DNA of 64,000 bases from an uncultured Chlorobiaceae bacterium (GTDB lineage Bacteria; Bacteroidota; Chlorobiia; Chlorobiales; Chlorobiaceae). The stretch spans positions 1 to 64,000 of the forward strand of contig CAIPMW010000004.1 of the NCBI GenBank assembly GCA_903866255.1. Direction: 5' to 3'. How positions within the stretch are numbered: the stretch's first letter is position 1; every line of letters starts with the position of its first letter. Of the stretch, positions 17,627 to 37,512 are shown piece after piece. The notes below the pieces were generated by a model. That model had not been told where the DNA came from and made no database searches. It saw nothing but the letters and a program-made list of their open reading frames with translations. The position numbers and the translations under genes are program-made.

Positions 17627-17635
17627 AACATATTC

Positions 17636-18073: not shown

Positions 18074-19161
18074 TCTCGGCCCCGCTCACTGGCAAATTGT
18101 TCGTATTCGACAAGCTGCTTTTGAGTGAATGCATACATATCGTTACTGCCTCGATAGTAAGAAGTGTACCATTCGCTGACCATGCGGATAGTTTCAGCAT
18201 AATCAAGATTTGGTTCCCATTTCAGATGAAAGAACGCCTTGTCGCAATTAAGCTTGAGCAAACCTGCTTCATGGAACGGAATGTTGTCAGTAATGCGATA
18301 AGCTTCATCTGAAGAGTCAAAGCCCCAGTTGCGGCCAAGATCTCCAATGAGTTCAACAACGGTGCGGTTCTGTTCAGCCCTTGGACCAAAGTTGAACGTT
18401 GAGCCATGCAATGTTTCGTTTTCAGCAAGAGCCATTCCAAGAGTAAGATAGCCACTCAATGGTTCCAGGACATGTTGCCAGGGACGCGTAGCTTTGGGAC
18501 TGCGGATTTCGACAATTTGTCCTTTATTCCAAGCTTTCATGCAATCAACAACGATACGATCCCTAGCCCAGTCACCACCACCGATGACATTACCCGCCCG
18601 GCCAACCCCCAAACGGACAAAATTGTCACTGCCCTGAAAAAATGAGTGCAGATAAGACTTTACGACCAGTTCGGCAGCTCCCTTGGATCCACTGTAGACA
18701 TCTTTTCCGCCAAGAGCATCGGTTTCCCGGTAACCCCAAACCCACTCTACGTTATCATAACACTTGTCACTCGTTATGATAACAGCTATGCATTTCCGGT
18801 TTAAACGCCTCAATACCTCAAGAACGTTCATGGTACCGATTGTGTTGGTCGTAAAGGTTTCAACAGGATCAATGTATGATACAGAAACAATGGCCTGGGC
18901 AGCCAGATGAAACACACAATCCGGTTGCTCTTCAGCAATCAACTCTTGCATGACTGCCAAATCCCGGACATCTGCCTGGTGATGGGAGAGCCGACCGGTA
19001 AGTCCAGTCTCCTCAAACATCGAAGGGTTGGTCGGCACATCTTTGGAAATGCCAATAACGTCAGCACCAAGCTTCAAAAGCCAAGCGGTGAGCCAGCTTC
19101 CCTTGAATCCGGTATGACCGGTAACCAGTACTCTCTTCCCTTTATAATAGCCTTTGAACAT
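18058..19161 (-). CDS. rfbG: CDP-glucose 4,6-dehydratase
   Basis: About 367 residues. RVLVTGHTGFKGSWLTAWLL is the diagnostic NAD-binding motif of RfbG. FHLAAQAIVSVSYIDPVETF and the catalytic YSGSKGAAELV follow. It converts CDP-glucose to CDP-4-keto-6-deoxyglucose, the entry to CDP-deoxysugars. The track start (19182) lies inside rfbF. The ATG at 19161 is better because GGAG lies 6 nt upstream and its ATG overlaps the rfbF stop as TGATG. Confidence 0.95.
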   Translation of the reverse strand: MFKGYYKGKRVLVTGHTGFKGSWLTAWLLKLGADVIGISKDVPTNPSMFEETGLTGRLSHHQADVRDLAVMQELIAEEQPDCVFHLAAQAIVSVSYIDPVETFTTNTIGTMNVLEVLRRLNRKCIAVIITSDKCYDNVEWVWGYRETDALGGKDVYSGSKGAAELVVKSYLHSFFQGSDNFVRLGVGRAGNVIGGGDWARDRIVVDCMKAWNKGQIVEIRSPKATRPWQHVLEPLSGYLTLGMALAENETLHGSTFNFGPRAEQNRTVVELIGDLGRNWGFDSSDEAYRITDNIPFHEAGLLKLNCDKAFFHLKWEPNLDYAETIRMVSEWYTSYYRGSNDMYAFTQKQLVEYEQFASERGREWTLS

Positions 19162-19931
19162 CAACTTCTCCAAACTTTCCATGGTGGGTTTGTCTTCCAG
19201 AGTTCCTCAAGATGACTTCTGTCGCGCACAGTATCCATACACTGCCAGAAACCATTATGCCTGTAGGTCATTAACTGGCCGTCACGGACAAGGTTCTCCA
19301 TTGGGTCAGACTCAAGAATGGTGTCATCACCGTGGAGATAGTCAAAAATTCCAGACTCAAACACAAAGAAACCGCCATTGACCCATCCTTCTCCTGTCTG
19401 AGGTTTCTCGGTAAATTCAATTACCCGATCTCCATCAAAATTAATACCACCGAATCGCGCCGTAGGATGAACCGCCGTAACCGTCGCAATTTTACCATGG
19501 GATTTGTGAAAGGCCACAAGCTTTCTGATATCGACCGAACAAACGCCATCGCCATAGGTCAGCATAAAGGTGTTGTTCCCTACATGCTTTTTCAGCCGAT
19601 GGAGCCTGCCGCCAGTCATGCTGTTCATCCCCGTATCAACAAGATGAACCAGCCAATCCCTTTCACAGTTTTTTTTGGCCGATACTTCCCCATTTTTCAG
19701 GGAGATGGTCAGATCACTTTGAAAATTATAGTAATTAAGAAAATATTCCTTGATGAACTCTCCCTTGTAACCAAGGGCAATAATGAATTCCCTGAAACCG
19801 TAATGACCGTAAATATTCATAATGTGCCAGAGAATCGGCTTGCCGCCGATATCCACCATGGGTTTCGGTTTGACAATGGTCTCTTCGCTCAACCGTGAAC
19901 CAAACCCGCCTGCAAGAATGACCGTTTTCAT
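19161..19931 (-). CDS. rfbF: Glucose-1-phosphate cytidylyltransferase
   Basis: A 256-residue nucleotidyltransferase with VILAGGFGSRLSEETIVKPK, MVDIGGKPILWHIM and TYGDGVCSVDI, all typical of RfbF. It makes CDP-glucose from CTP and glucose-1-phosphate. It is coupled to rfbG by overlapping stop and start codons, the standard rfbFG arrangement. Length is normal. No clear ribosome-binding site precedes the ATG. Confidence 0.95.
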   Translation of the reverse strand: MKTVILAGGFGSRLSEETIVKPKPMVDIGGKPILWHIMNIYGHYGFREFIIALGYKGEFIKEYFLNYYNFQSDLTISLKNGEVSAKKNCERDWLVHLVDTGMNSMTGGRLHRLKKHVGNNTFMLTYGDGVCSVDIRKLVAFHKSHGKIATVTAVHPTARFGGINFDGDRVIEFTEKPQTGEGWVNGGFFVFESGIFDYLHGDDTILESDPMENLVRDGQLMTYRHNGFWQCMDTVRDRSHLEELWKTNPPWKVWRS

Positions 19932-19944
19932 TCAATTCATTGTC

Positions 19945-21042
19945 TTAATAACAATTACACGCATCAATAACCGCCTGTACCTCCGCCTCTGTCATGCATG
20001 GAGCCATTGGCAGACTCAGTACAGTCCTGTGAATTTCCTCTGTTATGGGGTAACTATAGTCGTTCCACTCAACATAGGCTGGCTGTTTGTGCGGAGCTAC
20101 CGGATAATGAATAACCGTGCCTATGCCTCTTTGGCGAAGGTGCTCCTGGAAGAGATCACGCAATTCTGTTCTGATAACAAACAGATGCCACACATGGGAC
20201 TCCTGGCATAAACACCCGGGAAGAATTAATCGGGGATTGGTGATCAAGTTCAGATATTTGCTGGCAATTGCACGACGACTGCTATTGTCACGATCGAGAT
20301 ATTGGAGTTTTACAGAGAGCAAGGCAGCCTGCAACTCGTCAAGGCGACTGTTTACCCCTTTAAAAAGATTCTCGTATTTAACTGTCGAACCATAATTACC
20401 CAATGCACGAATGGTATCGGCAAGTTTCGCGTCATTAGTGGTTACCGCCCCGCCATCGCCCAGCGCTCCCAGGTTTTTTCCCGGATAAAAACTGAACCCG
20501 GCAGCATCACCAAGATTACCGGCCCGCTTGCAATGATAGAGCGCTCCATGCGCCTGGGCTGCATCCTCGATGATCTTGAGCCCATACTTGTCTGCCAGTT
20601 TCTGCAGCTCGTCAGAGTATCCAATCTGCCCATAAAGATGGACTACCATAATTGCCCTTGTTCTCGACGTAATCGAATCCTCAATTCTGGAAATATCCAG
20701 ATTAAAGGTATGCAACTCCGGTTCCACAGGTTTCGGAATGAGACGATTTGCCGATATGGCAAGCATAGAGGCTATGTAGGTGTTGGCAGGAACAATGACC
20801 TCATCGCCTTCAGCCATCTGGCCAAACTCAATATATGCCCTGAAAACAAGCGACAGCGCATCCAGTCCATTTGCCACTCCGATTGCCTGTGATACTCCGC
20901 AATAATCAGCAAACCTCCTCTCAAACTCTCGTACTTCATTCCCAAGTATATACCAGCCGGAATCAACCACTCTGGCCATTGCAGAAACAATCTCGTCTCT
21001 ATATTCAGCATTGACTTTACCTAGATTTAAAAACGGAATCAT
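19945..21042 (-). CDS. DegT family aminotransferase, FdtB/QdtB-like
   Basis: A 365-residue PLP enzyme with [38 protein letters not shown] and the lysine in [17 protein letters not shown]. This subgroup resembles FdtB/QdtB, which aminate 3-keto-6-deoxy dTDP-hexoses. The upstream neighbour, overlapping by 4 nt, encodes fused FdtC-like acetyltransferase and FdtA-like ketoisomerase domains, supporting a 3-amino sugar. RmlA and RmlB, which would supply the dTDP substrate, are not in the window. Confidence 0.85.
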
Positions 21043-21959
21043 TCTCCAACCCCTTTTAGGTATTCATCGTAACTCCTGATATAGTCTTCAGAAGAATAGA
21101 CCTCGGAGGCAAGAACCATTAGTATTGCATCAGTGGAGTATTTATACTGAACACCCCATATCATAGGCGGAATATATAGACCCTGTGCTGGGGAGTTTAA
21201 TAAAAACTCCTGTCGTTTTTGACCGTTATCAACCATGACTGAGCAATTCCCCCTCACACATACCAAGAACTGATGCACCTCTTTATGAGCATGTTCTCCT
21301 CGGGTTTCCTTACTCGGCACATCAAAAACAAGAAAATAGCGCTTAGGAATAAAGGGCAGAAACTGCCCATATTCAGCAAACGAGAGATTTCCTCGCATAT
21401 CTTTAATCAATGGCAAATGACAAAACATAACACCAGCAACAGAGGACTCTGTTTCGCTCCCTGAGCTCCGTTGTGCATTACTATTATGGCTATGAGTATT
21501 AACATATCCAATAACAACCGCCGGGTTTCCTGCAACGATTGCATTTGGAGGGACATCGCGCGTAACAACCGCACCAGCACCCACCATAGCGTTTATTCCC
21601 ACACTCAAACCAGCAAGAATTGTTGCATTCGCACCAATGGAAGAGCCTTTACACAAAAAAGTCTTTGTATACTCTTCAGGATGTTGTTTGCTTCTCGGAA
21701 AAAGATCATTGGTAAATGTTGCATTGGGACCGATAAATACATCATCCTCGATCCTTAGTCCGTCCCAGAGCTGTACACCGCACTTAACAGTTACACGATC
21801 ACCGATGACAACATCGTTTTCAATAAAAACATGATCGCAGATATTACAATCAGTTCCAATCCGCGCCCCCGGAAGAACATGGGAAAAAGCCCAAAGACGG
21901 GTATTATCTCCAATGGTTTCTGATTCAATTAGCGATTGGGGATGTTTGAAAAATGTCAT
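21039..21959 (-). CDS. Fused sugar N-acetyltransferase and 3,4-ketoisomerase (FdtC-FdtA / WxcM-like)
   Basis: A 306-residue two-domain protein. Residues 1-150 form a left-handed beta-helix of hexapeptide repeats ([40 protein letters not shown]), as in FdtC/WbbJ-type acetyltransferases. Residues 175-306 are a cupin with [19 protein letters not shown], as in FdtA/WxcM ketoisomerases. Together they would shift the keto group to C3 and acetylate the amine added by the downstream FdtB-like enzyme. AGGAG lies 7 nt upstream of the ATG. Such fusions are known in the WxcM-like family. Confidence 0.88.
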
Positions 21960-21969: not shown

Positions 21970-23058
21970 CTAATGATTTACTCTTATCTGTCCCAATAAG
22001 TTGTACAGCCTAAAATACGCTCGAACATGCTCTTTCAGAGAATCATCAAATGGAATCTGCCTGCGTACCAGAGCGCCAGGACCTTCAGACAGAATACATC
22101 CCAAAGTACTCCCAATGTTTTTTTTGTCACTGGAAAGAGCATCAAAATACGAGTCAATATCACACAGACTAAAATCGTAGTCAGGAAAATTTTCGGAAAG
22201 CTGTTCGCGCATCCGATCAAACAGCTCCCTGGACAGCAAACCAGTCTGGTATGAGAGATAATTGGCTAAATCCATACCCACTGTAACTGCCTGACCATGA
22301 CGGATGCCATAGTTGGTGATAGTCTCGATAGCATGGCCAAAGGTATGGCCGTAGTTGAACTTGTTACGCTCACCCTTGTCAAATTCATCAACTTCGATAA
22401 CCGACTTCTTGATGGCAAGGCTTTCCTGTGTATACTCTTTGAGAAGCTCACGATGAGCTATAAGATTGTCATAATTACTGACCAGCTTTCCAATCAACGG
22501 GCTGTTTGAATAGTAATAAAAATGCAGAATTTCACCGATACCGGATTTAATATCCTCAACAGCAAGGGATTGCAGAAAGAGGGAATCAATAAAAATCTGA
22601 TCGGGAGGATAAAAGTTGCCAAGCAGATTTTTCTTGTGGCCCAGATTAATGGAAGTTTTGCTTCCAATGCAACTGTCGCCCTGCGCCAGGAGAGTTGTGG
22701 GGAAAAAAATCCAGCCGACACCCCGATAAAGAATGGAGGCAATAAAAGCCGTCACATCCTGGATTACTCCGCCACCAATCGCAATCAGCTTCTGGTTGCG
22801 TCGCACCTTTCGTTCTACCAGGATTTCAATAATCTCCTTGCATTTTTCAAGCGTCTTGGTCGTTTCCGACGCTTCTATGACAAGGCACCTCTCCTCAACA
22901 ACGGCGTTATGAAGGCGATCATGGTAGATATCAAATACCGTGCGGTCACAGATGACAAAGGCTCCATCATCTGTCAACTGTTTCAGCGGAAGAGTGAAAT
23001 CATTGACAAAGTTAACAGCATACTCTTTTAATGCAGATCGGATAATCAGGTCAGACAT
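21970..23058 (-). CDS. 3-dehydroquinate synthase-like (AroB/sugar-phosphate cyclase superfamily) protein
   Basis: About 362 residues. [39 protein letters not shown] and the zinc histidines in [10 protein letters not shown] and RHGQAV place it in the AroB superfamily, which includes sedoheptulose-7-phosphate cyclases. The usual A-E-V/I-x-K motif reads [11 protein letters not shown] here. The zinc-ligand Glu is kept but the substrate-binding Lys is His, so the substrate is probably not DAHP. I chose ATG 23058, which has GGAGG 8 nt upstream and overlaps the SDR stop. It lies in a sugar operon, not with shikimate genes. Confidence 0.85.
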
Positions 23059-23782
23059 TGACAAAACCTCCATCGATAATGAGATTATGACCGGTTATAT
23101 AGGTATTGAGATCGCTGGCAAGAAAGAGTATCGAACGGGAGATCTCTTCTGGTTGAGCAAACCGACCGATAGGTAGCTCTGCAGCCATCCGTTCCATTTC
23201 AGCACTGCCGAGAATACGTTGTGTCAACTCGGTCACAACAAAGCCGGGAGAGACTGAATTGACGAGAATGTTAAAGGGAGCAAGATCGATAGCACTAGAA
23301 ACCGTCAGACCTCGCAAACCAAATTTGGACATCGAATAGAGAACCCGCCAGGCCTTGCTGATAACCCCGAAAACAGATGAAACATTAATGATCCGTCCGT
23401 AGTTGTTCGCCTTCATGATTTTGCTGACACAACGCACCATCATAAACGGAGCATCAAGGTTTACTGCCGAGATATCATCCCAGTCTTCGATCAACGTCTC
23501 ATCAATCGGGTTAATCCTGTTAATACCTGCATTATTGATACAGACATCTATCCTATCCATCTTTGCCACAACTTCAAAAAAACGTTCAGTCTTATTACGA
23601 TCCGTAAAGTCAACAGCCAGATATCGCTCATTGCCAACGGGCAAATCAACGGGCGGAAGTGAAGATGTACCGGTAACATAAACATCGGCACCAAGGCTCA
23701 GCAAATCTTCGGCCACCTGTCGGCCAATTCCCTTGGTACCGCCGGTAACAAGGGCTATCTTGCCCTGAAAATCGATCTTCAT
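23051..23782 (-). CDS. SDR family oxidoreductase
   Basis: About 243 residues, classical short-chain dehydrogenase: ALVTGGTKGIGRQVAEDLL (NAD(P) binding), INNAGINRI, catalytic Ser in NVSSVFG and YSMSKFGLRG (Tyr-x3-Lys), C-terminal [13 protein letters not shown]. It would oxidise or reduce a hydroxyl/keto group of the sugar intermediate. The track start at 23800 is a TTG inside the upstream gene; the ATG at 23782 follows that gene's stop and begins just before the fold. It overlaps the cyclase-like gene by 8 nt. Confidence 0.88.
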   Translation of the reverse strand: MKIDFQGKIALVTGGTKGIGRQVAEDLLSLGADVYVTGTSSLPPVDLPVGNERYLAVDFTDRNKTERFFEVVAKMDRIDVCINNAGINRINPIDETLIEDWDDISAVNLDAPFMMVRCVSKIMKANNYGRIINVSSVFGVISKAWRVLYSMSKFGLRGLTVSSAIDLAPFNILVNSVSPGFVVTELTQRILGSAEMERMAAELPIGRFAQPEEISRSILFLASDLNTYITGHNLIIDGGFVNV

Positions 23783-23787
23783 ATCAG

Positions 23788-24702
23788 TCAGCACACCCAA
23801 AGAGCTCCAAGTAAATTGTCAACAGCCTCCATCTCCATTTGCTGGCGACATTCAAGAGTGTATGAGCCCACATGCGGAGTCAGCAACGCGTTGTCACGCC
23901 CGCACAAGGCTCCACTGTAGGGCTCGCTTCCAAAGGTATCAAGCCAGACACCACCAAGAGTACCTGCATCAAGGGCGGCCATCAGTGCTTCTTCATCAAC
24001 CAATCCTCCACGGGCAACGTTCAGCAGAACAGCTCCTTTTTTCAGAAGACCAAACTCACGCTCACCCAGCAAACATGCCTCACCACTGTTGTGCAAAGTG
24101 ACGATATCGGCAAGCGGCAACGCCTCGTCGAGCGACACAAGTTCAATGTCGTGCAGAGTTGACTGGTCAAGGAAAGGATCGACAACCAAAAGACGTACCC
24201 TGAAAGGAGCAAGCAATGCAGCAACCCGGCGACCAATCCTTCCATAACCAACAATCGCAACAGTTTTGCCCTCCAGTTGTCCTCCAATGCGTTTTTCCCA
24301 TTTGCCGGAATGAAGTGCGCGATCCATTTGCGCAATTTTTCGCATAAGTGAGAGCAAAGCACCAATAGTAAGCTCAGCCACAGCTTCAACAGGGCCATTG
24401 GGAGTGGAACATACCGCAATACCAAGTTCACGTGCCGCTGGCTGATCTACATTGCTCATACCGGAACCTACACGGGAAATGGCCTTCAGACTGGAAAACT
24501 CCAGAACCTCACGGTCAAGCGGTTCCAAACCGGCAATAATACCGACCACATCCGGAGTCAGCAGTTCGAAAAGCTCAGATTTGGTCAGTTTACGCCGGAA
24601 AGGGTTGTCAATTATCTCGTAACCGGCATTTTGCAGTCGGATAACCGGGCTTTTGTCAGTCTCAGCAAACGACGAGGGCCCGAGCAGAATTTTTGATGTC
24701 AT
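23788..24702 (-). CDS. D-isomer-specific 2-hydroxyacid dehydrogenase (phosphoglycerate dehydrogenase-like)
   Basis: A 304-residue NAD-dependent enzyme. AIVGYGRIGRRVAALL binds NAD. The catalytic triad is visible as Arg in ISRVGSGMSNVD or LNVARGGLVDEEA, Glu in DTFGSEPY and His in LLTPHVGS. It would interconvert a 2-hydroxyacid and a 2-keto acid. In this operon, with a KdsB-like enzyme and a pyruvate-type aldolase, a role in making or reducing a keto-acid part of the sugar is plausible but unproven. It is not the serine-pathway SerA by context. Confidence 0.85.
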   Translation of the reverse strand: MTSKILLGPSSFAETDKSPVIRLQNAGYEIIDNPFRRKLTKSELFELLTPDVVGIIAGLEPLDREVLEFSSLKAISRVGSGMSNVDQPAARELGIAVCSTPNGPVEAVAELTIGALLSLMRKIAQMDRALHSGKWEKRIGGQLEGKTVAIVGYGRIGRRVAALLAPFRVRLLVVDPFLDQSTLHDIELVSLDEALPLADIVTLHNSGEACLLGEREFGLLKKGAVLLNVARGGLVDEEALMAALDAGTLGGVWLDTFGSEPYSGALCGRDNALLTPHVGSYTLECRQQMEMEAVDNLLGALWVC

Positions 24703-24727
24703 GATTGATTTAATAAGAATTCCTGGA

Positions 24728-25075
24728 TTATTCGGGAAGATCTTTAATATGCCAGATTACGCCTTCGTGATCCCTGAAAAAATATACCTTTCCAAAAGGC
24801 GCATCCTGCTCGGATTCGATATGCAAGTCAAGTCTGGCAAGCAGAGCTTTGGGATCAGGTCTGCGCAGACATGGATTGCAGAAGCCACTCATGGTCGGCA
24901 AATCGTCAATCTTTTTCTTTTTCACCTCAATATTGATTCCCTCAGGAGAGGTAAACATTGAGGTTCCGCTTTTGGAAATAACCTCAAAGCTGCCACCCTC
25001 AAATACCGCTACAAGAAACTCACAATAACGGTTAATATCAGAAACGTGCACTTCAACATGGTCAAAACGTGACAT
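24728..25075 (-). CDS. VOC (glyoxalase/dioxygenase fold) family protein
   Basis: A 115-residue protein with FDHVEVHVSDINRYCEFL at the N-terminus and FFRDHEGVIWHIKD at the C-terminus, the paired beta-alpha-beta modules of VOC proteins. His in FDHVEV and residues near VIWHI could bind metal. The family covers isomerases, epimerases, lyases and dioxygenases, so the reaction is unknown. GGGGAG lies upstream of the ATG. It is in the middle of the putative new sugar cluster. Confidence 0.8.
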   Translation of the reverse strand: MSRFDHVEVHVSDINRYCEFLVAVFEGGSFEVISKSGTSMFTSPEGINIEVKKKKIDDLPTMSGFCNPCLRRPDPKALLARLDLHIESEQDAPFGKVYFFRDHEGVIWHIKDLPE

Positions 25076-25106
25076 GTAAGGCTCCCCTGTTCATATGAAT
25101 TAAAAT

Positions 25107-25721
25107 TTAGTTGGTCAGCCTGCACTGAAACCAGTGAGCCAGAATGTGGTTCAGTACAAGATGGGCATCTTCGACCGGGCCATATTCACCGGCTTCTGAC
25201 TGAACATGAAGAACAACATCGCTGATTTCCTTCAGTTTGCCTCCACCGAATCCAAGAAATCCAATGACTCTGCCACCCTGCTCTTGTACCCACTCCGCCG
25301 CCGCAACCACATTGGGTGAATTGCCGCTGGCCGAAATCGCAAGCAGTTTATCGCCAGGTCTGAAGTGTATTTTAAGCTGATTGAGAAAAATGTTCTCATA
25401 ACCAACATCATTGGCAATGGCCGTGATGACGGAAGAATTATCCGTCAGCGCAAGAACCCGGAATGGCTTGTCGGTACCGGTCTTTTTCAGGATATCAAAA
25501 CCGATATCATTTGCCATACTGCTTGCCGTGGTAGCCGATCCGCCGTTTCCTGCAATAAAAATTGTAGCACCACTTTCACGGGCAGCTTCAAATTCCGCAA
25601 CCAGCCGATCGATGGCTTCAGGTTCAATGGAATCGAGAACCTGCTTTAAATAGGTAAAATAGCCTCGTGCAAATGCTCCTGCACTGTTTGAAGATGCATA
25701 AACCTTTTGAATGTTATTCAT
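25107..25721 (-). CDS. SIS domain sugar isomerase, GmhA-like
   Basis: A 204-residue protein with the SIS signatures FIAGNGGSATTASSMANDI and LLAISASGNSPNVVAAAEW and the C-terminal GEYGPVEDAHLVLNHILAHW. This matches phosphoheptose isomerase-type GmhA proteins, which convert sedoheptulose-7-phosphate to a heptose-7-phosphate. Substrate here is unproven. A heptulose phosphate would link it with the AroB-like cyclase, whose relatives use seven-carbon substrates. AGGAGG precedes the ATG by 11 nt. Confidence 0.85.
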   Translation of the reverse strand: MNNIQKVYASSNSAGAFARGYFTYLKQVLDSIEPEAIDRLVAEFEAARESGATIFIAGNGGSATTASSMANDIGFDILKKTGTDKPFRVLALTDNSSVITAIANDVGYENIFLNQLKIHFRPGDKLLAISASGNSPNVVAAAEWVQEQGGRVIGFLGFGGGKLKEISDVVLHVQSEAGEYGPVEDAHLVLNHILAHWFQCRLTN

Positions 25722-25739
25722 ACGGGTGGTAACCTCCTG

Positions 25740-26777
25740 TCATGGATGAGAAATATTGAACTGCTGCTGCCATTGACTGTCAGCGCAGTATATCTTGTAG
25801 ACAAGCTCCATAACCCTTAAGGCATCGGTGCTCGTTCCGCTTTCTATCGGATTGTCATTCACTATGGCCGAGGCAAACTCGCTTACCTCATCACGCCACG
25901 AATTATCCTCAAGATAGGCGGTAGTTTCTTCTGTAAATGATCCAACGATTGAACCATCTTTTTTGGGCACAAAACGCAGTTTCTCCTCACCATAGCTTTT
26001 GGAGCCCGACAATATGCCCGTCAATTCCAGCAACGCATCTTCCAGTGTGACCTCAAGGCGGAAACGATGTTGCCACTGGGTAGCCGTGGAATGGATCATG
26101 GCGACACATCCGGAGCGATTCCTCATGATAGCGTAGGCGTTGTCTTCCACATCATGATTCCAGTAATCATTGGAAACAAAACTCTTGACCTCTTCAAAAT
26201 CACCTGCAAAAAAAAGAATCATGTCGAGCATGTGGATCCCCTGATCCAGAAGAATCCCACCTCCGGCATACTTTCGCTCAGAGCGCCAGCCGCCGGAAAA
26301 AGGAATGACACTGCTTTTTCCGTAGATTCCCCTGATATTGATAACCTTGCCATACTTGCCACTGTCAATAATCCGCTTTGCTTCGATAACAGAAGCATGA
26401 TAGCGATGATTGAAACCATATTTAAGCTTTATCTGCGGATGGTGCTTTTCAGCTTCAATCACCCTTCGAATATCCTCAACCGTTTTTCCCGGAGGTTTCT
26501 CACAAAAAACATGAAAGCCATGTTCAATTCCGGAAATTGTGGCTTGAGCCGCCAAATGGTTTGGCAAGCTTACGAAAAGAATATCGATATCCTGAGAATA
26601 GAGTGACTTGAAGTCGGGGAAAAAATGCACACCATCATCAGCGATTCCATTTTTTTCAAAAGAGATATCACTCACCGCAACCGTCGCCAGATCTGGATGC
26701 TGGTCAATAAACAAACGGCGCCTTTTTCCTACAACACCAAAACCGGCAATACCAACTTTTAACTTGCTTGATACCAT
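25740..26777 (-). CDS. Gfo/Idh/MocA family oxidoreductase
   Basis: A 345-residue NAD(P)-dependent enzyme: KVGIAGFGVVGKRRRLFI (nucleotide binding), VFCEKPPGKT with the catalytic Lys, and GGGILLDQGIHMLDMIL with the conserved Asp and His. Relatives oxidise or reduce sugar hydroxyls, often at C3 of a sugar nucleotide. Full length. Lies 19 nt upstream of the SIS gene in the same operon. Confidence 0.88.
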   Translation of the reverse strand: MVSSKLKVGIAGFGVVGKRRRLFIDQHPDLATVAVSDISFEKNGIADDGVHFFPDFKSLYSQDIDILFVSLPNHLAAQATISGIEHGFHVFCEKPPGKTVEDIRRVIEAEKHHPQIKLKYGFNHRYHASVIEAKRIIDSGKYGKVINIRGIYGKSSVIPFSGGWRSERKYAGGGILLDQGIHMLDMILFFAGDFEEVKSFVSNDYWNHDVEDNAYAIMRNRSGCVAMIHSTATQWQHRFRLEVTLEDALLELTGILSGSKSYGEEKLRFVPKKDGSIVGSFTEETTAYLEDNSWRDEVSEFASAIVNDNPIESGTSTDALRVMELVYKIYCADSQWQQQFNISHP

Positions 26778-26822
26778 TATTGAGAATTTCAGAAAATAGT
26801 TATATCTATTGCATTACAGCTC

Positions 26823-27806
26823 TCACAACTCCCAATCTTTTGTGCAGATAACCATCATATGTGAACTTAACAGATGACGAGCCAGAAAATCCTGCAATTC
26901 TTGTTTAGCTCTTTCAGATGCTTGTAACATAAACGATTGCCAGAACCTGTCCGTCACATGCGGAAGGTTGTTTTCGATAATATTGACATCCAGCCTTCCG
27001 GGAGTTGTTGTTTCCAGGAGGTTAAAGCCGCAACGTGCAAGAAGTTTCGATACAGAATGCGGATTGAAAAAATTAAGATGGTGCGGCGGCGAAACTGCCT
27101 GTGAGTGTTCCCACAACACCCGTATATCAGCCCCCATGCCATTCAATGTACTGAAAATAAAGGTATCTCCGATTCGCATCAGCTTGTTGAGAGTGCCAAG
27201 AAAGAGAGCCGGGTCATAGAGATGCTCAAAAAGTTCAAAACTGACAAAACAACGGGTTTTATCATCCAGGTCATCTGGTGAAACATCCTCCAGAAACTTT
27301 TCAATCACCTCAAAACCCTTGCTTCGACAAACCTCGGCAAGATGAAGCGACGGCTCGATGACTGTTACCTTGCAGCCGTAAACAAGGCTGATCTCCTCGG
27401 CAAAGGTGCCGTAGCCACCCCCAATATCGACAATCTCATCGACAGCCGGAAGAGTGGAAAGTTTTTGACGAATAAGCTCCGCCTTGGGCTTCCATATTTT
27501 CTCTCTTCTGGCAGCTTCCGTCTCTCTGTAAAACGTGGTAGCCCAATAGCGGGTTGAAGGAGAGTCGGTATAGTATCGATCAAAAGCTGAACGTTCAGGG
27601 CGCGGATTGACATAAAGGGTACGACACTGTGGACACTCAGCATAACTGAATCCGGATTTGATGAACGCTGTCTCCCCGTTTGCTCCACAAGAGGGACAGC
27701 AAACCTCATGTCTCGAAGCATCGCTGAAATACGTGGCGGTATCCTCGGCTGTCAGCCTCAGATACTCATCAAAAATCTCTTTGGGACGAATATCATGCTC
27801 TTTCAT
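26823..27806 (-). CDS. Class I SAM-dependent methyltransferase with zinc ribbon
   Basis: A 327-residue protein. Residues 35-65 hold a four-cysteine ribbon (CCPSCGANG, then CPQCRTLYVNP). A methyltransferase domain follows with VDIGGGYGTFAEEI (SAM motif I) and FVSFELFEHLYDPALFL. Such two-part proteins are common in sugar clusters and methylate hydroxyl or carbon positions of nucleotide sugars. The target is unknown. Its start overlaps the end of the KdsB-like gene by 14 nt. Confidence 0.85.
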   Translation of the reverse strand: MKEHDIRPKEIFDEYLRLTAEDTATYFSDASRHEVCCPSCGANGETAFIKSGFSYAECPQCRTLYVNPRPERSAFDRYYTDSPSTRYWATTFYRETEAARREKIWKPKAELIRQKLSTLPAVDEIVDIGGGYGTFAEEISLVYGCKVTVIEPSLHLAEVCRSKGFEVIEKFLEDVSPDDLDDKTRCFVSFELFEHLYDPALFLGTLNKLMRIGDTFIFSTLNGMGADIRVLWEHSQAVSPPHHLNFFNPHSVSKLLARCGFNLLETTTPGRLDVNIIENNLPHVTDRFWQSFMLQASERAKQELQDFLARHLLSSHMMVICTKDWEL

Positions 27807-28566
27807 ACAACTTCAGCAGACTATCATTTTTCATAAGCTGCTCGACATATTGTAAATCTGCAACAGTATCAACAGCATGCGTCTCGAATCTGGTTCGGAT
27901 CATCCGGATTTTAATCCCGTTTTCGACAATCCGCATCATATCAACCGACTCTATGATTTCGAGTGGCGTCTGCTCCATCCCGTTATACTCAATCAGAAAG
28001 TCCCGGCGAAAAGGAATGATCGGAACCTGCTTGAACATCGGTATCTCTCCAGAGTATTTTTTTCGGGACGGAATCGGTTCCCGTGAAAAATAGAGAGCAT
28101 TACCAGCAAGATCATTCACCACCTTGACCTGATTGGGATCCTCAAATTCACTCTGAGAGGTAATTTGGCCAAGCAGATTGGTAATCAGCAGATTCGGGTT
28201 ATCGATCATGGGTTGAACAGCTTCGGTAATCATTTCGGGATAGACCATCGGCTCATCACCCTGAATCATGGCAAGAATATCGATTCGTGTTCCGCTCTCC
28301 TCCTCAATCTTCAGCATCCCTTCCGCACAACGGTCGCTGGCACGCTCGTGAGTATCAGCGGTCATGACTGCTTTTCCGCCAATAGACTCAATGTAGTCAA
28401 ACACCTCCTGATCACAGGTAGCAACATAGAGCTCCGTCAACTCAGGGCACATCCGGCAACGGTAATAAACATGCCCGATCATAGGAATACCGTTTATCAT
28501 GGCCATCGGTTTTCCCGGATAACGGGAAGAAGCCATGCGGGCAGGGATCATGCCTGTGATGTTCAT
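27793..28566 (-). CDS. KdsB-like CMP-sugar (ulosonic acid) cytidylyltransferase
   Basis: A 257-residue nucleotidyltransferase of the KdsB group: GMIPARMASSRYPGKPMAMI, MIQGDEPMVYPEMI and ESVDMMRIVENGIKIRMIRT. KdsB activates Kdo with CTP. Here it stands in an operon of unusual sugar genes, not with Kdo genes, so it probably activates a different ulosonic acid. It could also serve the legionaminic pathway as LegF, though it lies outside that block. Coupled by ATGA overlap to the FkbM gene. Confidence 0.85.
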   Translation of the reverse strand: MNITGMIPARMASSRYPGKPMAMINGIPMIGHVYYRCRMCPELTELYVATCDQEVFDYIESIGGKAVMTADTHERASDRCAEGMLKIEEESGTRIDILAMIQGDEPMVYPEMITEAVQPMIDNPNLLITNLLGQITSQSEFEDPNQVKVVNDLAGNALYFSREPIPSRKKYSGEIPMFKQVPIIPFRRDFLIEYNGMEQTPLEIIESVDMMRIVENGIKIRMIRTRFETHAVDTVADLQYVEQLMKNDSLLKLYERA

Positions 28567-29450
28567 CGCATCAACTCCTCACGAATAAAAATGTAGTTAT
28601 AAAAATTTTTACTTTTTCCTTCATCAAATTGAGGAGCATGCTCTTTTGCAAATATACTAAATCCACTTCTTTTAAAAGTGTCTAGTATTCGACTAATAGC
28701 TTCATCACAACCATTTAATTCAATCAAAACAGATTTTAATCTCTTATCATAAAGAGCTTCAGAACAACCCTTTACAAGTCCGTCTTCATAACCATCTATA
28801 TCAATTTTAATATGAGTAGGGAAAGGGGGTTTGTAGATCCTTATAAATTCATCTAAAGAAAAACTAATCATCGCTTGATTAAACAAAACTTTAGACTGCA
28901 CTACTCCAGCATAATTGAAATCCTTCAATTTTGATTCACTAAATTGAGAGTATGCCCCACCAAAATTAGTATCACCCATATTAAAAGAACCGATTTTTTG
29001 GCTCTCAGAAAGAGCTATGCAATATGCAGAAATACACTCATCAAGATGATTAATTTCGATATTTTTGTTTAAAACCCAGTAATTAGCTGAGGATGGCTCA
29101 AATGCACATACTTGAATTCCTTTAGTAACAGCCGCATAAAGAGAATATACCCCAATATTTGCACCAATATCCCAAAATATGTCACCATCTTGAAATGTAT
29201 CAATCCATCTGAGTGTTTCCGGCTCCTTCACGAAGAATTCTTCAACACGAAAAAGAACATCATAGCCTGGACAAGTCAAAATCATTGATTTATTTCCAAG
29301 CAGTGATATTTTTTTTAGAGGAATCAAATCTTGTACAAGCTCTAAAATAAACCTTTCACGCTGTTTATTGCCGACAGGAAGTAGTAATATATTTATAGCA
29401 TTATTCATTACTACCTTTAAATAATCAGCAAATCGCCTTTTAATACTCAT
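28563..29450 (-). CDS. FkbM family methyltransferase
   Basis: About 295 residues. DIFWDIGANIGVYSLYAAVT is the SAM-binding motif I and HIKIDIDGYEDGLVKGC the second family motif of FkbM-type O-methyltransferases. It probably methylates a sugar hydroxyl. The track start is a TTG; the ATG three codons in (29450) is simpler, though no ribosome-binding site is clear. It is visibly more AT-rich than both neighbours, suggesting separate acquisition. Confidence 0.82.
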   Translation of the reverse strand: MSIKRRFADYLKVVMNNAINILLLPVGNKQRERFILELVQDLIPLKKISLLGNKSMILTCPGYDVLFRVEEFFVKEPETLRWIDTFQDGDIFWDIGANIGVYSLYAAVTKGIQVCAFEPSSANYWVLNKNIEINHLDECISAYCIALSESQKIGSFNMGDTNFGGAYSQFSESKLKDFNYAGVVQSKVLFNQAMISFSLDEFIRIYKPPFPTHIKIDIDGYEDGLVKGCSEALYDKRLKSVLIELNGCDEAISRILDTFKRSGFSIFAKEHAPQFDEGKSKNFYNYIFIREELMR

Positions 29451-29557
29451 AGAAATCAATCATTAAATGAATCAAAAACATATTATCAAATCCACACCAT
29501 GATACCGAAAAAATAATGGTCTATAGAACTACGCTTAGCACTGTCTCACCTTTATCA

Positions 29558-30331
29558 CTATGATCTTATTTTCTTAAGTGATTGATTACAAGTTTCTCCT
29601 AAAAACAGAAAATCAGTACTGAATGCAACAAATGAATAGCCTTTGTCGATACGAGCACTGACTTGAGTGTAATCTGAAGGAACAACATGATAGCCAAGAG
29701 GTTTATGAAGTTTTACAGAAACCTCTTCGTAATGGGCAATAGCCGCCTTTACATCTGAATCCTCGAATTTTCCGGGTTTGCCCATAGATGCCGACAGGTC
29801 ATAGGGGCCGATAATGGTACCATCGATACCTTCGACAGAGAGGATCGACTCGATATTATTGATTGCATCTATATGCTCAATCTGGGCAATAACTACCGAC
29901 TCATCCTCAAGCCACTCTACATATTCCTCAAAACCAGCTCCATATTTCTGCGCTCTTGCCAGTCCAACACCCCTTGTACCTGCCGGAGGATACTTTACTG
30001 CCCGAACTGCGGCCTCAGCTTGTTCATGCGAATTAACCATCGGGACAATAACACCATGCGCCCCTGCATCCATTACCCGCTTGATCTGGCTGGAATCATT
30101 TCCTGTCAAACGCACCAGCGCTGTTTTACCTTTAAGAGCAATGATTCGGATCAACTCTTCAGCCTCCCGAATGGTGATGACGCTGTGCTCCATGTCAACA
30201 GTCAACCAGTCAAACCCTGCATCTGCCATTATCTCGGCAATAGCCGGATGAGCAAGAGTTATCCAGGAACCGATGGTCAGTTGTTTTTCCCTCAATGCCT
30301 TTTTCAGGCTTTTACCGTTACACTGTTCCAC
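29558..30331 (-). CDS. HpcH/HpaI family aldolase
   Basis: About 257 residues. LTIGSWITLAHPAIAEIMAD, FDWLTVDMEHS, GAHGVIVPMVNSHEQAEAAV, AQIEHIDAINNIESIL and GPYDLSASMG are hallmarks of class II pyruvate aldolases of the HpcH/HpaI family. These join pyruvate-type enolates to aldehydes, giving 2-keto-3-deoxy acids. In a sugar cluster with a KdsB-like enzyme, the aldolase could build the ulosonic acid chain. I chose GTG 30331 over the TTG at 30358 because GGGGA lies upstream; it overlaps the wzx end by 14 nt. Confidence 0.85.
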   Translation of the reverse strand: MEQCNGKSLKKALREKQLTIGSWITLAHPAIAEIMADAGFDWLTVDMEHSVITIREAEELIRIIALKGKTALVRLTGNDSSQIKRVMDAGAHGVIVPMVNSHEQAEAAVRAVKYPPAGTRGVGLARAQKYGAGFEEYVEWLEDESVVIAQIEHIDAINNIESILSVEGIDGTIIGPYDLSASMGKPGKFEDSDVKAAIAHYEEVSVKLHKPLGYHVVPSDYTQVSARIDKGYSFVAFSTDFLFLGETCNQSLKKIRS

Positions 30332-31799
30332 TTCGCAGCTTCCCCATGATTGAAACAAGTTTATCTCTTTCCTCCCTGTAAAGAATCAGCGAGTAGAAAA
30401 CAAGACACATGATCGCGATTAAAAATGATTTATAAAGAAGCACAGAAAAGAGTGAAGAAAATGAAAGGCTCTCTCCCGCGACAATAACCGCTATACTGAG
30501 TCCCATGAGTGCTGCCAGGCGTCCTCTCTCGTATGGAATAGTATAAAGACGGTTTGAAACCAGAAAAACCAGCATAAAAACTGTACAATAGCAAATCAAA
30601 ATCACTACTGCAGCCGCCAGATAGCCAAAGCGGGGCACCAGCAGATAGTTGAGAAAGAGCGAAACCAGCGATGTAAACCAGAAAATATAGGCATGATAAA
30701 TCACCTTCCGACTGAAATAAATGCCGTTATCGATAATATTGACCGCCCCGTAAACAAGCATTCCCATCATGACAAAAGGAACCACCCGGCATGCTTCGAC
30801 ATATTCCTTGTGGCCAGCAAGAAGCGTTATGATTTCACGGGAAAAAATACTCAGAAACACCGTGATCATCAATCCAATCATAAAGTAATAGGTCAGTACC
30901 TTTTTATAGAGCTCATCCGCATTATGATCGTTTCGATACTGCATTCTCATGGGCGACCAGATCTGGCCAAACGGAAAAACAAGAATGATGTTTATAACCA
31001 TTCCGATCTGATAACCCAGTGAATAGATACCGAGGTCGCCAAGTGAACAGTACTTGTTGATAAAAAAACGATTCAGCCAGTCAAATGAAAAATAAGCGAG
31101 CGAGATAATAATCGCCTGCAAACCAAATGGAATCTGAATTTTTAACTCTTTGGGTGAATAGCCCAGTACAAAATTTTTTCGAACCATCAGAAACAGAACG
31201 ACACAAACCACAGCCTGATTGAGCAATCCACCAAGAATTGGAGCCAGAACCCCCAGCTTCATCCAGACCAGAAAGAAGACAATCAATAACGAGGAGAGCA
31301 GAAGCGAAACAATATTGAGCACCACCACCTGCCGTGAAAGCCGCTGGAAACGCAGCAACATGTAAAAAAGTGTATTGATGAACGTTATCGCTGAGGATAC
31401 GAGCATCAGTGAAATATGCAGAGAGTATGCTGTCGATTTGAAAAGCCACCCGGAAACCATGCCCCCAAACAGAAATCCCAAAGCATTCTGTACCACCGCT
31501 CCAAAGAGGGTAACAAAGAGGGAAGTACTGACTACACGCTTGCGTTCTTCAGGGTCGTCATAATCATAGTAGGATCTGGCCAACGCTGATGAGGCTCCAA
31601 GATAAAAAATAGCTCCTACAAGTGTTCCGCAAATAGTGACAAGGGAGAGCACTCCATACATATCGGTGGTATAGTACCGTGTATAGAGCGGAATAAGAAT
31701 AAAGCCTGTAAGTGCCTGAAGAACTGAACCCAATCCATAAATGACAGTATGACTTCCAGCCTCTTTGATCTTGTCAAAGAGGCTTCTTACTTCTGTCAT
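30318..31799 (-). CDS. Oligosaccharide flippase (Wzx/MATE-like polysaccharide transporter)
   Basis: A 493-residue integral membrane protein with about 14 hydrophobic segments. The N-terminus GSHTVIYGLGSVLQALTGFI and LIPLYTRYYTTDMYGVLSL are typical of Wzx-type flippases. It would move the undecaprenyl-linked repeat unit across the inner membrane for Wzy-dependent polymerisation. It begins a transcription unit that runs left through the new-sugar genes; a 400-nt AT-rich region lies upstream. Confidence 0.9.
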   Translation of the reverse strand: MTEVRSLFDKIKEAGSHTVIYGLGSVLQALTGFILIPLYTRYYTTDMYGVLSLVTICGTLVGAIFYLGASSALARSYYDYDDPEERKRVVSTSLFVTLFGAVVQNALGFLFGGMVSGWLFKSTAYSLHISLMLVSSAITFINTLFYMLLRFQRLSRQVVVLNIVSLLLSSLLIVFFLVWMKLGVLAPILGGLLNQAVVCVVLFLMVRKNFVLGYSPKELKIQIPFGLQAIIISLAYFSFDWLNRFFINKYCSLGDLGIYSLGYQIGMVINIILVFPFGQIWSPMRMQYRNDHNADELYKKVLTYYFMIGLMITVFLSIFSREIITLLAGHKEYVEACRVVPFVMMGMLVYGAVNIIDNGIYFSRKVIYHAYIFWFTSLVSLFLNYLLVPRFGYLAAAVVILICYCTVFMLVFLVSNRLYTIPYERGRLAALMGLSIAVIVAGESLSFSSLFSVLLYKSFLIAIMCLVFYSLILYREERDKLVSIMGKLRSGTV

Positions 31800-32907: not shown

Positions 32908-33189
32908 CTACGAGTCACCATAATGGCCTCGTAGCGAAAGAACATAAACTGTAACAACCGAATCATTGATTGTGTAAATCAACCGCTCCTTTCTGTTCAA
33001 TCTTCTCGACCAATAACCAGATAAATTACCTCTGAGCTGTTCGGCTTTTCCCGTACCAAAGGCAGGATGTTCAGTCAGCTCATCGATGATTTTTTCAATT
33101 TTCCTCAGGATCGACTTATCCCCATGTTTTTGCCAGTAGAGAAGATCTTTATCAGCCTTGGCCGTAAATTTTACTGTATACCTTTCCAT
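32908..33189 (-). CDS. Txe/YoeB family toxin (RelE superfamily)
   Basis: A 93-residue protein. [20 protein letters not shown] at the N-terminus and the catalytic region [20 protein letters not shown], ending in [12 protein letters not shown], match YoeB/Txe ribosome-dependent mRNA interferases. Glu in EQL, Arg in SRR and the terminal His-Tyr pair are present. It overlaps the upstream antitoxin by 19 nt. Likely an active toxin. Confidence 0.9.
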
Positions 33190-33428
33190 AGTTGGCTGGA
33201 GTCTTTTACCTCCCGTACCCGACCTGCAGCTATATCCTCCTCAGCCTCTTTCAGCGCTGCCAACAATCTCGGATTGGAGAAATACTTATCCGCGCCGCTA
33301 ATTTTTTTTGCCGGAATAATCTCGTATGTCTCAGCTTTGCCATACTGAATAACAACTCGCTCATTATTGGCCATGGTCAGGTACTTCTTGAGATTCCTGC
33401 GCAACTCTGTTGTGCTTATCGCTATCAT
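33171..33428 (-). CDS. YefM/Phd-type antitoxin
   Basis: About 85 residues: [20 protein letters not shown] is the Phd/YefM DNA-binding N-terminus, followed by [20 protein letters not shown] and an acidic toxin-binding tail. The track ORF starts at 33500, but ATG 33428 has GAGAGG about 6 nt upstream and matches the family start. It would neutralise the YoeB-like toxin and autorepress the pair. Confidence 0.88.
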
Positions 33429-33513
33429 AACCACCTCTCTTTGTGTTATCCGCTTGCCCTTTCCATAATAAACATTTTTTTTGTCTGAATAATCACACAC
33501 CAGTGCCGGGCGA

Positions 33514-33909
33514 TCAAACCCTCACAGCAAGGCCGTTTCCCCTCAGAAATCTTCCCGCGTGTTTAGAAAAGGTCTCTATGATGGATATCGCTGCCTGTAT
33601 TGCTTGTGGACTTTTGAGTATTGTGGCAAGCATATACAATCCTTTTTCGGTAAATGCCTTGGGATTTACCGTAGAGTGCTTGAGCTTGTCGAACCGGTGG
33701 AAATTTTCCGCCAGTTCATTTTTTTCAGGCTTTAAAAGTTTTAAGATATAACCCTGAGGGAACTTATCCGGATTATTCGTCACTGCTTGATTAATATCCA
33801 TGGTCTCAACTCCATAAATTTGAGCAACATCACTGTCAAGCAAGACACTCTGACCTCTTATCTCAACGATCAGCTCTTTTAAATTCTCAATTTTTATGAT
33901 CTCACTCAT
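33514..33909 (-). CDS. ORF6N domain protein
   Basis: A 131-residue protein with LIVEIRGQSVLLDSDVAQIY, NNPDKFPQGYILKLLKPEKN and FTEKGLYMLATILKS, typical of the ORF6N (KilA-N-related) domain found in phage and mobile-element proteins with suspected DNA-binding roles. Its ATG overlaps the neuB stop (ATGA), so it is translated with neuB. The C-terminus (RFLRGNGLAVRV) is shorter than in many homologues and may be truncated. Confidence 0.85.
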   Translation of the reverse strand: MSEIIKIENLKELIVEIRGQSVLLDSDVAQIYGVETMDINQAVTNNPDKFPQGYILKLLKPEKNELAENFHRFDKLKHSTVNPKAFTEKGLYMLATILKSPQAIQAAISIIETFSKHAGRFLRGNGLAVRV

Positions 33910-34907
33910 AACAGATCATCCTTGTCGTAGTCTTTCACGGCAGCTTGTCCAATAATCTCATCCCACCGCATGGGTGAAATACCTGTTCCTGGTCGCTTGG
34001 CTGTGACGTTCTGTGCACTGAAGAGTTCACCAGCTTTAATCAACTTGCTGGCAACAAGTGATTTACGAGCAACAGGCTTATTCTTTGCTTCGCCTGGAGT
34101 GAGCCGTTTGATGCCATCACCAAGAGCAACTTCGATATTGCGAATGGCTGTTATCATGGCGTTGAGTTCTGTGGGTTCAAGACTTGCCTTGTGGTCGGGA
34201 CCCGGCAAATTGCGATCAAGGGTAAAGTGTTTTTCGATGACCGTTGCGCCCAAGGCAACAGCGGCAATTGCAACTTCTATACCTTGCGTATGGTCTGAAT
34301 AACCCACAGCTACACCAAAAGCACTATGGATGCTCTGCATCACTCTAAGATTTACCTCTGCCATGGGCGTAGGGTATTCTGTGGTGCAATGCAGCAGTGT
34401 CAGATTAGCTCGGGAGGTTCCGGCTTTTTCAATCACCTCAATTGCGGCTTCAATTTCACCCAACGTTGCCATCCCTGTGGAGAGAATAACAGGCTTACCA
34501 AATTGACCAATATGGCGCAAGTAAGGGAGATTGGTGATCTCTCCTGATGGAATTTTGAACTGACTCTGACCGAGACTCACCAGCAGATTGACACTCTTGA
34601 TATCAAAGCCTGTGGAGAAAAAGCCGATATTTTGCAATGCACAATGGGCGATAATTTCGTTGTGCATTGCAGGTGTGAGTTCCAGTCGGCGAAGCATCTC
34701 GTGCTGTGATTCATTTCCATCCGTAGTCTTTGCCTGGTAGTCAGCCTTTTTGGCTGAGTGTGTAACCAGACGGTCTGCATTGAAGGTCTGAAACTTGACA
34801 AGATCAGCTCCCGCTTCGGCCGCAACATCTATCAACTGTTTGGCTAACTCCATGTCACCATTATGATTGACCCCGGCTTCAGCGATAATGAGCGTTCGTT
34901 GTGTCAT
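33906..34907 (-). CDS. neuB: N-acetylneuraminate/legionaminate synthase family protein
   Basis: A 333-residue NeuB enzyme: IIAEAGVNHNGDMELAKQLI, LVKFQTFNADRLVT, LLHCTTEYPTPMAEVNLRVM, GYSDHTQGIE and IEKHFTLDRNLPGPDHKASL, ending in a SAF (antifreeze-like) domain with RPGTGISPMRWDEIIG. It condenses a hexosamine with PEP to give a nonulosonic acid. The neighbours legB, legC and neuD point to legionaminic acid or a relative. ATGA overlaps link it to neuD and to the ORF6N gene. Confidence 0.93.
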   Translation of the reverse strand: MTQRTLIIAEAGVNHNGDMELAKQLIDVAAEAGADLVKFQTFNADRLVTHSAKKADYQAKTTDGNESQHEMLRRLELTPAMHNEIIAHCALQNIGFFSTGFDIKSVNLLVSLGQSQFKIPSGEITNLPYLRHIGQFGKPVILSTGMATLGEIEAAIEVIEKAGTSRANLTLLHCTTEYPTPMAEVNLRVMQSIHSAFGVAVGYSDHTQGIEVAIAAVALGATVIEKHFTLDRNLPGPDHKASLEPTELNAMITAIRNIEVALGDGIKRLTPGEAKNKPVARKSLVASKLIKAGELFSAQNVTAKRPGTGISPMRWDEIIGQAAVKDYDKDDLL

Positions 34908-36717: not shown

Positions 36718-36856
36718 GATTTACCTTATTTCAACCTGTCGATAAATTGAAAAAAACACAACAACGCCGATAGCACATTTATCAAAACCCGGGGAAATAA
36801 TGTTATCCTTTTTTAAGATAAATCGTTACATCCATTGCCGTCAATTTTTTGGCAAT

Positions 36857-37464: not shown

Positions 37465-37512
37465 AACTATCTCCTCGATGGTTTTCCGAAATTACTGATA
37501 TGCGCACATCGT

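Follow-up and report, generated by a model that had tools for sequence, protein, structure and literature searches.

A conserved gene module predicted to make and CMP-activate an uncharacterised 2-ulosonic acid in an uncultured Chlorobiaceae bacterium

A cluster of ten minus-strand genes at positions 21970-30358, with short gaps or overlaps between neighbours according to a check of the open reading frames, lies within a 64,000-nucleotide stretch of DNA from an uncultured Chlorobiaceae bacterium (GenBank assembly GCA_903866255.1, contig CAIPMW010000004.1, positions 1 to 64,000; hereafter, the window). About eight of these genes form a set that very probably serves to assemble and activate a sugar acid, as yet uncharacterised, for a polysaccharide of the cell surface. 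The fixed set of predicted proteins consists of a short-chain dehydrogenase/reductase (SDR), an AroB-like protein of family TIGR04425, a SIS-domain protein, a Gfo/Idh/MocA oxidoreductase (Gfo/Idh), a D-2-hydroxyacid dehydrogenase (HADH), and a cytidylyltransferase, and this module is conserved and horizontally spread. In the window variant, synthesis of a cytidine monophosphate (CMP)-ulosonic acid via a pyruvate aldolase (HpcH/HpaI, hereafter HpaI) and a KdsB-like cytidylyltransferase is well supported. The pathway, the clade of CMP-synthetases, and the predicted AroB reaction appear to be undescribed in the literature searched; the parts are known families.

Conservation of the module and its two cluster types

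The search for related loci started from ten aligned TIGR04425 proteins and covered 84,980 genomes (the best 80 loci were kept) and viral contigs (79 loci); all open reading frames around these loci were compared with the window proteins. By their place in the tree, seven loci from Campylobacterota (L086-L088, L091-L093, and L095) encode ordinary AroB, and they were excluded from residue counts. Homologous clusters are found in Omnitrophota, Bacteroidota, Thermodesulfobacteriota, Chloroflexota, and Pseudomonadota. Eight genes of an Omnitrophota locus (L018) follow the order of the window (HpaI-KdsB-methyltransferase-Gfo/Idh-SIS-HADH-SDR-AroB) at 51-61% identity, and most of the set is also present in Syntrophaceae (L016), Bacteroidota (L020 and L021), Nitrosomonadales (L032), L042, and others. 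Culturable carriers of the AroB-like gene include Mucilaginibacter segetis (L022) and Draconibacterium mangrovi (L030). Two loci from the window's own phylum (L176 and L177) contain HpaI, HADH, Gfo/Idh, SIS, SDR, and AroB-like genes together with a PseF-like cytidylyltransferase, a YhcH/NanM-type anomerase (DUF386), and a PF04199 hydrolase; in such Bacteroidota-type clusters HpaI is kept and KdsB is replaced by PseF-like proteins and YhcH/NanM anomerases. Module neighbours were found at none of eight ordinary aroB loci, most of those stretches being only ~4 kb long. The clustering of the same genes, often collinear, in other phyla indicates a real module rather than a chance assembly; the sequence-only reading of this DNA had staked its proposal on such co-occurrence, which is clear across phyla. 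Elsewhere the same genome encodes an ordinary AroB (contig C82) and an ordinary KdsB (contig C87), indicating that the gene set at 21970-30358 is a dedicated one.

Of 145 classified loci, 130 have the SDR gene immediately upstream of the AroB-like one, versus none of the eight ordinary aroB loci. CMP-type clusters combine this pair with a cytidylyltransferase (KdsB-like, PseF-like, or a NeuA-cupin fusion), and the 24 cellular loci with a KdsB- or PseF-type enzyme contain Gfo/Idh (21 loci), HADH (21), SIS (16), and HpaI (12). Clusters of the second type combine the pair with a YerE-like enzyme dependent on thiamine diphosphate (ThDP), in cells usually alongside cytidine diphosphate (CDP)-glucose genes. 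At least one of a divergent HpaI-like protein (41 loci), a NeuB-like synthase (27), and a 4-hydroxy-2-oxovalerate-aldolase-like protein (6) is found in 73 of the 79 ThDP-type loci, among which HADH occurs once and Gfo/Idh and SIS not at all. In a tree of the AroB-like proteins, both types stand apart from ordinary AroB and the sedoheptulose-7-phosphate (S7P) cyclases (SH-aLRT 100), and most CMP-type members fall in one 51-row clade (SH-aLRT 96).

Among the viral contigs (L096-L174), more than 70 from IMG/VR carry the SDR/AroB-like pair. About half also encode a ThDP enzyme with NeuB-like or divergent HpaI proteins, and others encode a NeuA-cupin fusion, a phage SIS protein, and a class III aminotransferase; these contigs represent phages with an unusual-sugar pathway. 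Two further proteins recur beside the clusters. A PF04199-like cyclase/hydrolase (arylformamidase-like), possibly a lactonase, accompanies CMP-type clusters (L020, L021, L026, L027, L030, L033, L035, L037, L039, and L175-L177), and a TIGR04326 'surface carbohydrate biosynthesis' protein, a candidate transferase for the CMP-sugar, is often located next to or near KdsB (L032:15415-17313, L016, L020, L024, L026, L028, L031, and L044).

The KdsB-like cytidylyltransferase and its coupling to the aldolase

The KdsB-like protein exceeds the cut-off of the subfamily model NF009905 (296.7 versus 255 bits) and falls below the kdsB equivalog cut-off of TIGR00466 (135.4 versus 155.2 bits). Each of the 13 cluster-bearing genomes tested encodes two KdsB-family proteins, and a tree separates the 13 cluster copies from the 13 ordinary KdsBs as two clades (bootstrap 100, SH-aLRT 99). 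Residues D51, G76, N100, H180, Y184, E209, and Q210 are near-universal in the ordinary KdsBs but not in the cluster copies; at nine diagnostic positions the ordinary enzymes read D-G-N-H-G-Y-Y-E-Q, versus C-A-M-Q-P-I-F-D-M in the window. By its sequence, the KdsB-like enzyme belongs to a new clade distinct from the KdsB of the same genomes, and it is predicted to be a CMP-ulosonate synthetase. The pathway for 3-deoxy-D-manno-oct-2-ulosonic acid (Kdo) resembles the proposed one in the fold and family of its cytidylyltransferase and in the activation of a 3-deoxy-2-ulosonic acid, but the cluster enzyme forms a separate clade changed in the substrate region (H180, Y184, E209, and Q210), an aldolase replaces KdsA, and every genome tested has kept its own KdsB. 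No match was obtained when the KdsB-like protein was used as a query against the viral contigs.

The strongest evidence for the pathway comes from differences in the pocket residues among clusters. The signature CAMQxIFDM, with slight variants, is shared by the window, L017, L018, L020, L021, L032, L042, and L060, and HpaI is present in all seven intact clusters; the sole case lacking it (L017) has little sequence upstream to inspect. A second signature, CACIGFFDS (also with slight variants; L016, L024, L026, L031, L037, L044, and L058), always goes with an additional Gfo/Idh plus a HisC-like or DegT aminotransferase, and HpaI is absent from all these clusters; four loci (L028, L038, L041, and L048) have intermediate signatures. 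The way in which the pocket residues track either the aldolase or the aminotransferase suggests that the enzymes share a pathway and that there are two products. This coupling, the conserved neighbourhood, and the exchange of KdsB for a PseF-like protein and a NanM/YhcH anomerase in other HpaI clusters support the sequence-only suggestion that HpaI and the KdsB-like enzyme jointly serve a dedicated CMP-ulosonic acid pathway.

The catalytic and metal-binding residues of the aldolase (H58, R83, E161, and D187) are conserved in 14 cluster members. The protein misses the equivalog cut-offs for HpaI (195.6 versus 368.8 bits), GarL, and RhmA, and has the motif PYDLS where solved relatives have PADLS. 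As had been claimed, the cluster contains no synthase of the NeuB/KdsA kind dependent on phosphoenolpyruvate (PEP): none occurs at 21.9-30.4 kb, and the NeuB gene at 33.9 kb is part of a LegC/NeuD group. The pathways for sialic, legionaminic, and pseudaminic acids (NeuB/PseI with NeuA/PseF, and the NanM anomerase) likewise activate an ulosonic acid with CMP, and PseF-like and NanM-like proteins even occur in related clusters; the window cluster differs in having an HpcH/HpaI aldolase for the PEP-dependent synthase, plus the AroB-SDR pair. The predicted system would add a new clade of CMP-ulosonate synthetases and tie aldolase-based keto-acid synthesis to CMP-sugar activation.

The AroB-like protein and the proposed route

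AroB, or 3-dehydroquinate synthase (DHQS), makes the first ring of the aromatic amino acids. The window protein scores 432 bits against TIGR04425, over the cut-off of 400, and 268 bits against TIGR01357 (AroB), under the cut-off of 305. No report naming TIGR04425 was found in the literature searched, nor was any report of such a pathway found for AroB with CMP-Kdo, valiolone, caryophyllose, or O-antigen. The sequence-only reading knew of no standard pathway with this gene set, but the set is not entirely new, as NCBI already names the family 'AroB-related putative sugar phosphate phospholyase (cyclizing)', a hypothetical equivalog. A testable function is proposed here for a family with a hypothetical name only.

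Fifteen DHQS active-site positions (A. nidulans numbering) were transferred via motifs; K250 and R264 hold the substrate carboxylate in DHQS. TIGR04425 proteins agree with ordinary AroB at 13 of the 15, including the K250 and R264 equivalents, and these are invariant. The two positions that differ in the window protein are His at 197 and Phe at 267. His occupies position 197 in 50 of 66 CMP-type versus 1 of 77 ThDP-type proteins, and position 267 is mostly Phe or Met in the cellular CMP type and Leu in the ThDP type. The S7P cyclases (EEVS and relatives) belong to the same superfamily, but the four annotated examples have Met250, non-Arg264, Asp268, Pro275, and no Lys356; the Met250, non-Arg264, Asp268, and Pro275 signature is absent from the window protein, which is DHQS-like at all five positions. 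Retention of the DHQS-type residues in the absence of the cyclase signature suggests that the substrate is probably a 2-ulosonate-7-phosphate rather than S7P. The same residues speak against the sequence-only view of the enzyme as a synthase of C7-cyclitols (carbasugars), and the EEVS/valiolone route is rejected because the active site is of the wrong kind. With DHQS itself, the window protein shares the fold, the cofactor and metal residues, and the carboxylate pocket, but it differs in its score under the aroB cut-off, the existence of a paralogue in the genome, His197 and Phe267, and partners that need an uncyclised keto acid. A search of plasmids with the AroB-like protein gave no match at E 1e-50, and at E 1e-5 found only ordinary AroB and S7P-cyclase-type matches, which were used as a comparison.

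In DHQS, ring closure on C2 destroys the 2-keto acid. The partners of the AroB/SDR pair act on 2-keto acids, those of the KdsB/PseF type and the NanM-type anomerases on ulosonic acids, while YerE-type ThDP enzymes decarboxylate alpha-keto acids. Since these partners need an intact C2 keto group, we tentatively propose, at less than an even chance, that the AroB-like enzyme removes the phosphate without closing the ring and gives a terminally deoxygenated ulosonic acid. The chance that the module forms a short, uncharacterised 2-ulosonic acid and activates it with CMP for a surface polysaccharide, by the following steps, seems to us about even. HpaI would join pyruvate to an aldose phosphate, forming a 3-deoxy-2-ulosonate-7-phosphate. 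The AroB-like enzyme would carry out the first half of DHQS chemistry (oxidation at C5, elimination of the C7 phosphate, reduction, and opening), and protonation of the enol with no closure on C2 would yield a 6-keto-7-deoxy acid. Reduction of this ketone by the SDR would then produce a terminally deoxygenated ulosonic acid with the C2 keto group still free, which the KdsB-like enzyme would convert to a CMP-ulosonate. SIS, Gfo/Idh, and HADH may modify the acceptor or fix oxidation state and stereochemistry, before or after the AroB-like step, and the methyltransferases would add decoration.

The ThDP-type clusters can be read in the same way. The YerE-type enzymes ErwE and MMAR_2332, the latter from caryophyllose synthesis, prefer 4-hydroxy-2-oxo acids (PMC12247030), and caryophyllose is 3,6-dideoxy-4-C-(1,3,4,5-tetrahydroxyhexyl)-hexopyranose (PMC5706390). 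From this branch structure, the donor must be 2-oxo-4,5,6-trihydroxyheptanoate, the 7-deoxy form of the 3-deoxy-arabino-heptulosonate-7-phosphate (DAHP) skeleton. An aldolase, loss of phosphate with no ring formed, and reduction by the SDR would yield exactly this compound, and are proposed as the missing donor pathway for caryophyllose-type branched sugars. The YerE/ErwE/MMAR_2332 pathways (yersiniose, erwiniose, and caryophyllose) are akin to the window system in that the sister ThDP-type clusters have an SDR/AroB-like pair and an aldolase makes an alpha-keto acid; there, however, a CDP-keto-sugar receives the acid after decarboxylation, whereas in the window cluster it is proposed to be CMP-activated. 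The donors of erwiniose, yersiniose, and gastriose do not require deoxygenation at the terminal position. More broadly, TIGR04425 may comprise non-cyclising DHQS homologues that, with the SDR, turn a 2-ulosonate-7-phosphate into a 7-deoxy-2-ulosonic acid destined for a CMP-sugar (with a KdsB-, PseF-, or NeuA-like partner) or for ThDP-dependent branching of the caryophyllose type, as a two-gene core in many phyla and at least 70 viral contigs; this generalisation is plausible but falls short of probable. If true, the lack of ring closure in a DHQS homologue would broaden the known reactions of a textbook enzyme family and offer a new way to remove a terminal hydroxyl. A mycobacterial locus carried by 3 of 149 genomes in the genus (L081, L200, and L201) has a conserved content of RfbG, RfbH-like, RfbF, GT2, ThDP, divergent HpaI, SDR, AroB-like, and FGGY-type kinase (by sequence) genes, and is a candidate caryophyllose-type sugar locus.

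Several points weigh against the route through a non-cyclising AroB-like enzyme. Once the enol has formed, DHQS chemistry leads by default to a closed ring; HpaI, being present in only 12 of the 24 KdsB/PseF-type loci, is not a universal source of the keto acid; the proposed steps leave the roles of SIS, Gfo/Idh, and HADH unexplained; the functions of all cluster proteins are predicted; and the caryophyllose assignment of the mycobacterial locus rests on gene content. An unlikely alternative places oxidation first. SIS, Gfo/Idh, and HADH would take a ketose-7-phosphate through an aldose and an aldonate to a 2-keto-aldonate-7-phosphate, which the AroB-like enzyme and SDR would deoxygenate, and HpaI would act later or in some variants only. 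This order would suit the position of these three enzymes as the core of KdsB/PseF-type clusters and their near-absence from the ThDP type, where an aldolase or synthase replaces them, as well as the CACIGFFDS clusters with no aldolase nearby and the recurrence of the potential lactonase of PF04199. The HADH triad (R231, E260, and H277) is retained throughout 31 relatives, so that this enzyme should act next to a carboxylate. However, this order would not account for HpaI, which the window and all intact CAMQxIFDM clusters have; phage CMP-type clusters occur without Gfo/Idh and HADH, and the metal site of the SIS protein is altered. The SIS protein (81% identical to a Syntrophaceae homologue from the same cluster type) scores 91 bits against GmhA, where the cut-off is 209, and is far below every GmhA cut-off; the region of GmhA His64/Glu68 is not conserved, Gln is replaced by Glu184, and the last His is kept. 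Given the missed cut-offs and lost metal-site residues, the heptose-7-phosphate isomerase role formerly suggested for this protein is unsafe.

It is distinctly unlikely that the AroB-like enzyme cyclises after all, yielding a quinate-like carbocyclic acid, with the SDR and Gfo/Idh as cyclitol dehydrogenases and the KdsB-like enzyme activating the carbocycle or a separate acid. Family homology, the NCBI term 'cyclizing', the full set of DHQS residues, and the best full-length family match of Gfo/Idh (inositol dehydrogenase, although far under its cut-off) are in keeping with such a carbasugar, but ring closure would use up the C2 keto group needed by the KdsB-type, NanM-anomerase, and ThDP partners, the active-site signature is not that of cyclitol synthases, and shikimate- or cyclitol-type downstream genes do not recur. 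The notion of two unrelated sugars merely co-located, one a CMP-acid made by HpaI and the KdsB-like enzyme and the other made by SDR, AroB-like, SIS, Gfo/Idh, and HADH proteins, is highly unlikely: L060 does have KdsB, HpaI, and HADH beside a ThDP-type AroB cluster, and several SDR-AroB loci contain no cytidylyltransferase, but joint inheritance is repeated across phyla, and the CMP/ThDP split appears both in the AroB tree and at position 197. Activation of Kdo, or of legionaminic acid from the LegC/NeuD/NeuB genes at 33.9-36.7 kb with the rest of the cluster a mosaic, is rejected as extremely improbable, for although those genes are only 4-6 kb distant and the window has no second recognisable CMP transferase, an ordinary KdsB is encoded on contig C87 and a NeuA-like CMP transferase (by sequence) on contig C25, and the KdsB-like enzymes form a different clade that follows HpaI, not NeuB, in other phyla. 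Bradyrhizose was also considered and set aside, its 11-gene cluster being described too sparsely for comparison.

Gene families and flanks of the locus

The open reading frames and the Pfam/NCBIfam matches confirmed the gene set, strand, and families of the sequence-only reading for nine of the ten genes (Table 1). For the exception, a VOC-like protein of 115 aa, searches of Pfam, NCBIfam, and PHROGs gave nothing, the related loci lack a homologue, and the single-sequence fold has a pLDDT of 38. The genes for this protein, the zinc-ribbon methyltransferase, and the FkbM protein are peripheral to the cluster; the zinc-ribbon methyltransferase is common to the window, L018, L021, L032, and L042, and FkbM is also present in several related clusters. 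The true start of the aldolase is probably a GTG near 30331. Gfo/Idh keeps K94 and D178/H182.

Table 1. Genes of the cluster, with the evidence for each assignment
Gene product	Position	Strand	Evidence and remarks
AroB-like protein, TIGR04425	21970..23073	-	DHQ_synthase/TIGR04425, 432 bits; predicted NAD/metal-dependent phosphate-eliminating enzyme
SDR oxidoreductase	23051..23800	-	Profile match; near-constant neighbour of the AroB-like gene
D-2-hydroxyacid dehydrogenase (HADH, PGDH-like)	23788..24702	-	Profile match; Arg-Glu-His triad retained
Small VOC-like protein, 115 aa	24728..25075	-	Reading of the sequence only
SIS-domain isomerase, GmhA-related, metal site altered	25107..25721	-	Profile match and residues
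Gfo/Idh/MocA oxidoreductase	25740..26777	-	Profile match; catalytic Lys and Asp/His retained
S-adenosylmethionine (SAM) methyltransferase, zinc-ribbon N-terminus (optional part)	26823..27806	-	Methyltransf_23
KdsB-like cytidylyltransferase, new clade, predicted CMP-ulosonate synthetase	27793..28566	-	CTP_transf_3, NF009905
FkbM-family methyltransferase (optional part)	28563..29459	-	Pfam/NCBIfam
HpcH/HpaI class II pyruvate aldolase	29558..30358	-	Profile match and catalytic residues

The genes on either side, which include a CDP-glucose/aminotransferase group (16.5-21 kb), a predicted flippase upstream (30.3-31.8 kb), and LegC/NeuD/NeuB (33.9-36.7 kb), point to a surface polysaccharide locus; a protein with acetyltransferase and cupin-like parts lies at 21.0-22.0 kb. 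The stretch from 16487 to 21959 encodes a CDP-glucose synthase, a 4,6-dehydratase, a small cupin-like protein, and DegT aminotransferases, and looks like CDP-linked and possibly dTDP-linked amino-deoxyhexose routes. CDP-glucose genes related to those of the window also border the KdsB-type clusters in L026, L032, and L044. LegC, NeuD, and NeuB are accompanied by a nearby gene resembling a sugar-nucleotide dehydratase (33906-38510); despite this group, no NeuA/LegF was found in the window. The NeuA-like protein on contig C25 adjoins an iron-type alcohol dehydrogenase. Between the flippase and NeuB, a small two-gene unit (33171-33909) encodes two proteins, one of 109 aa that resembles an antitoxin by its sequence and one of 131 aa that matches the PADLOC candidate PDC-S05.

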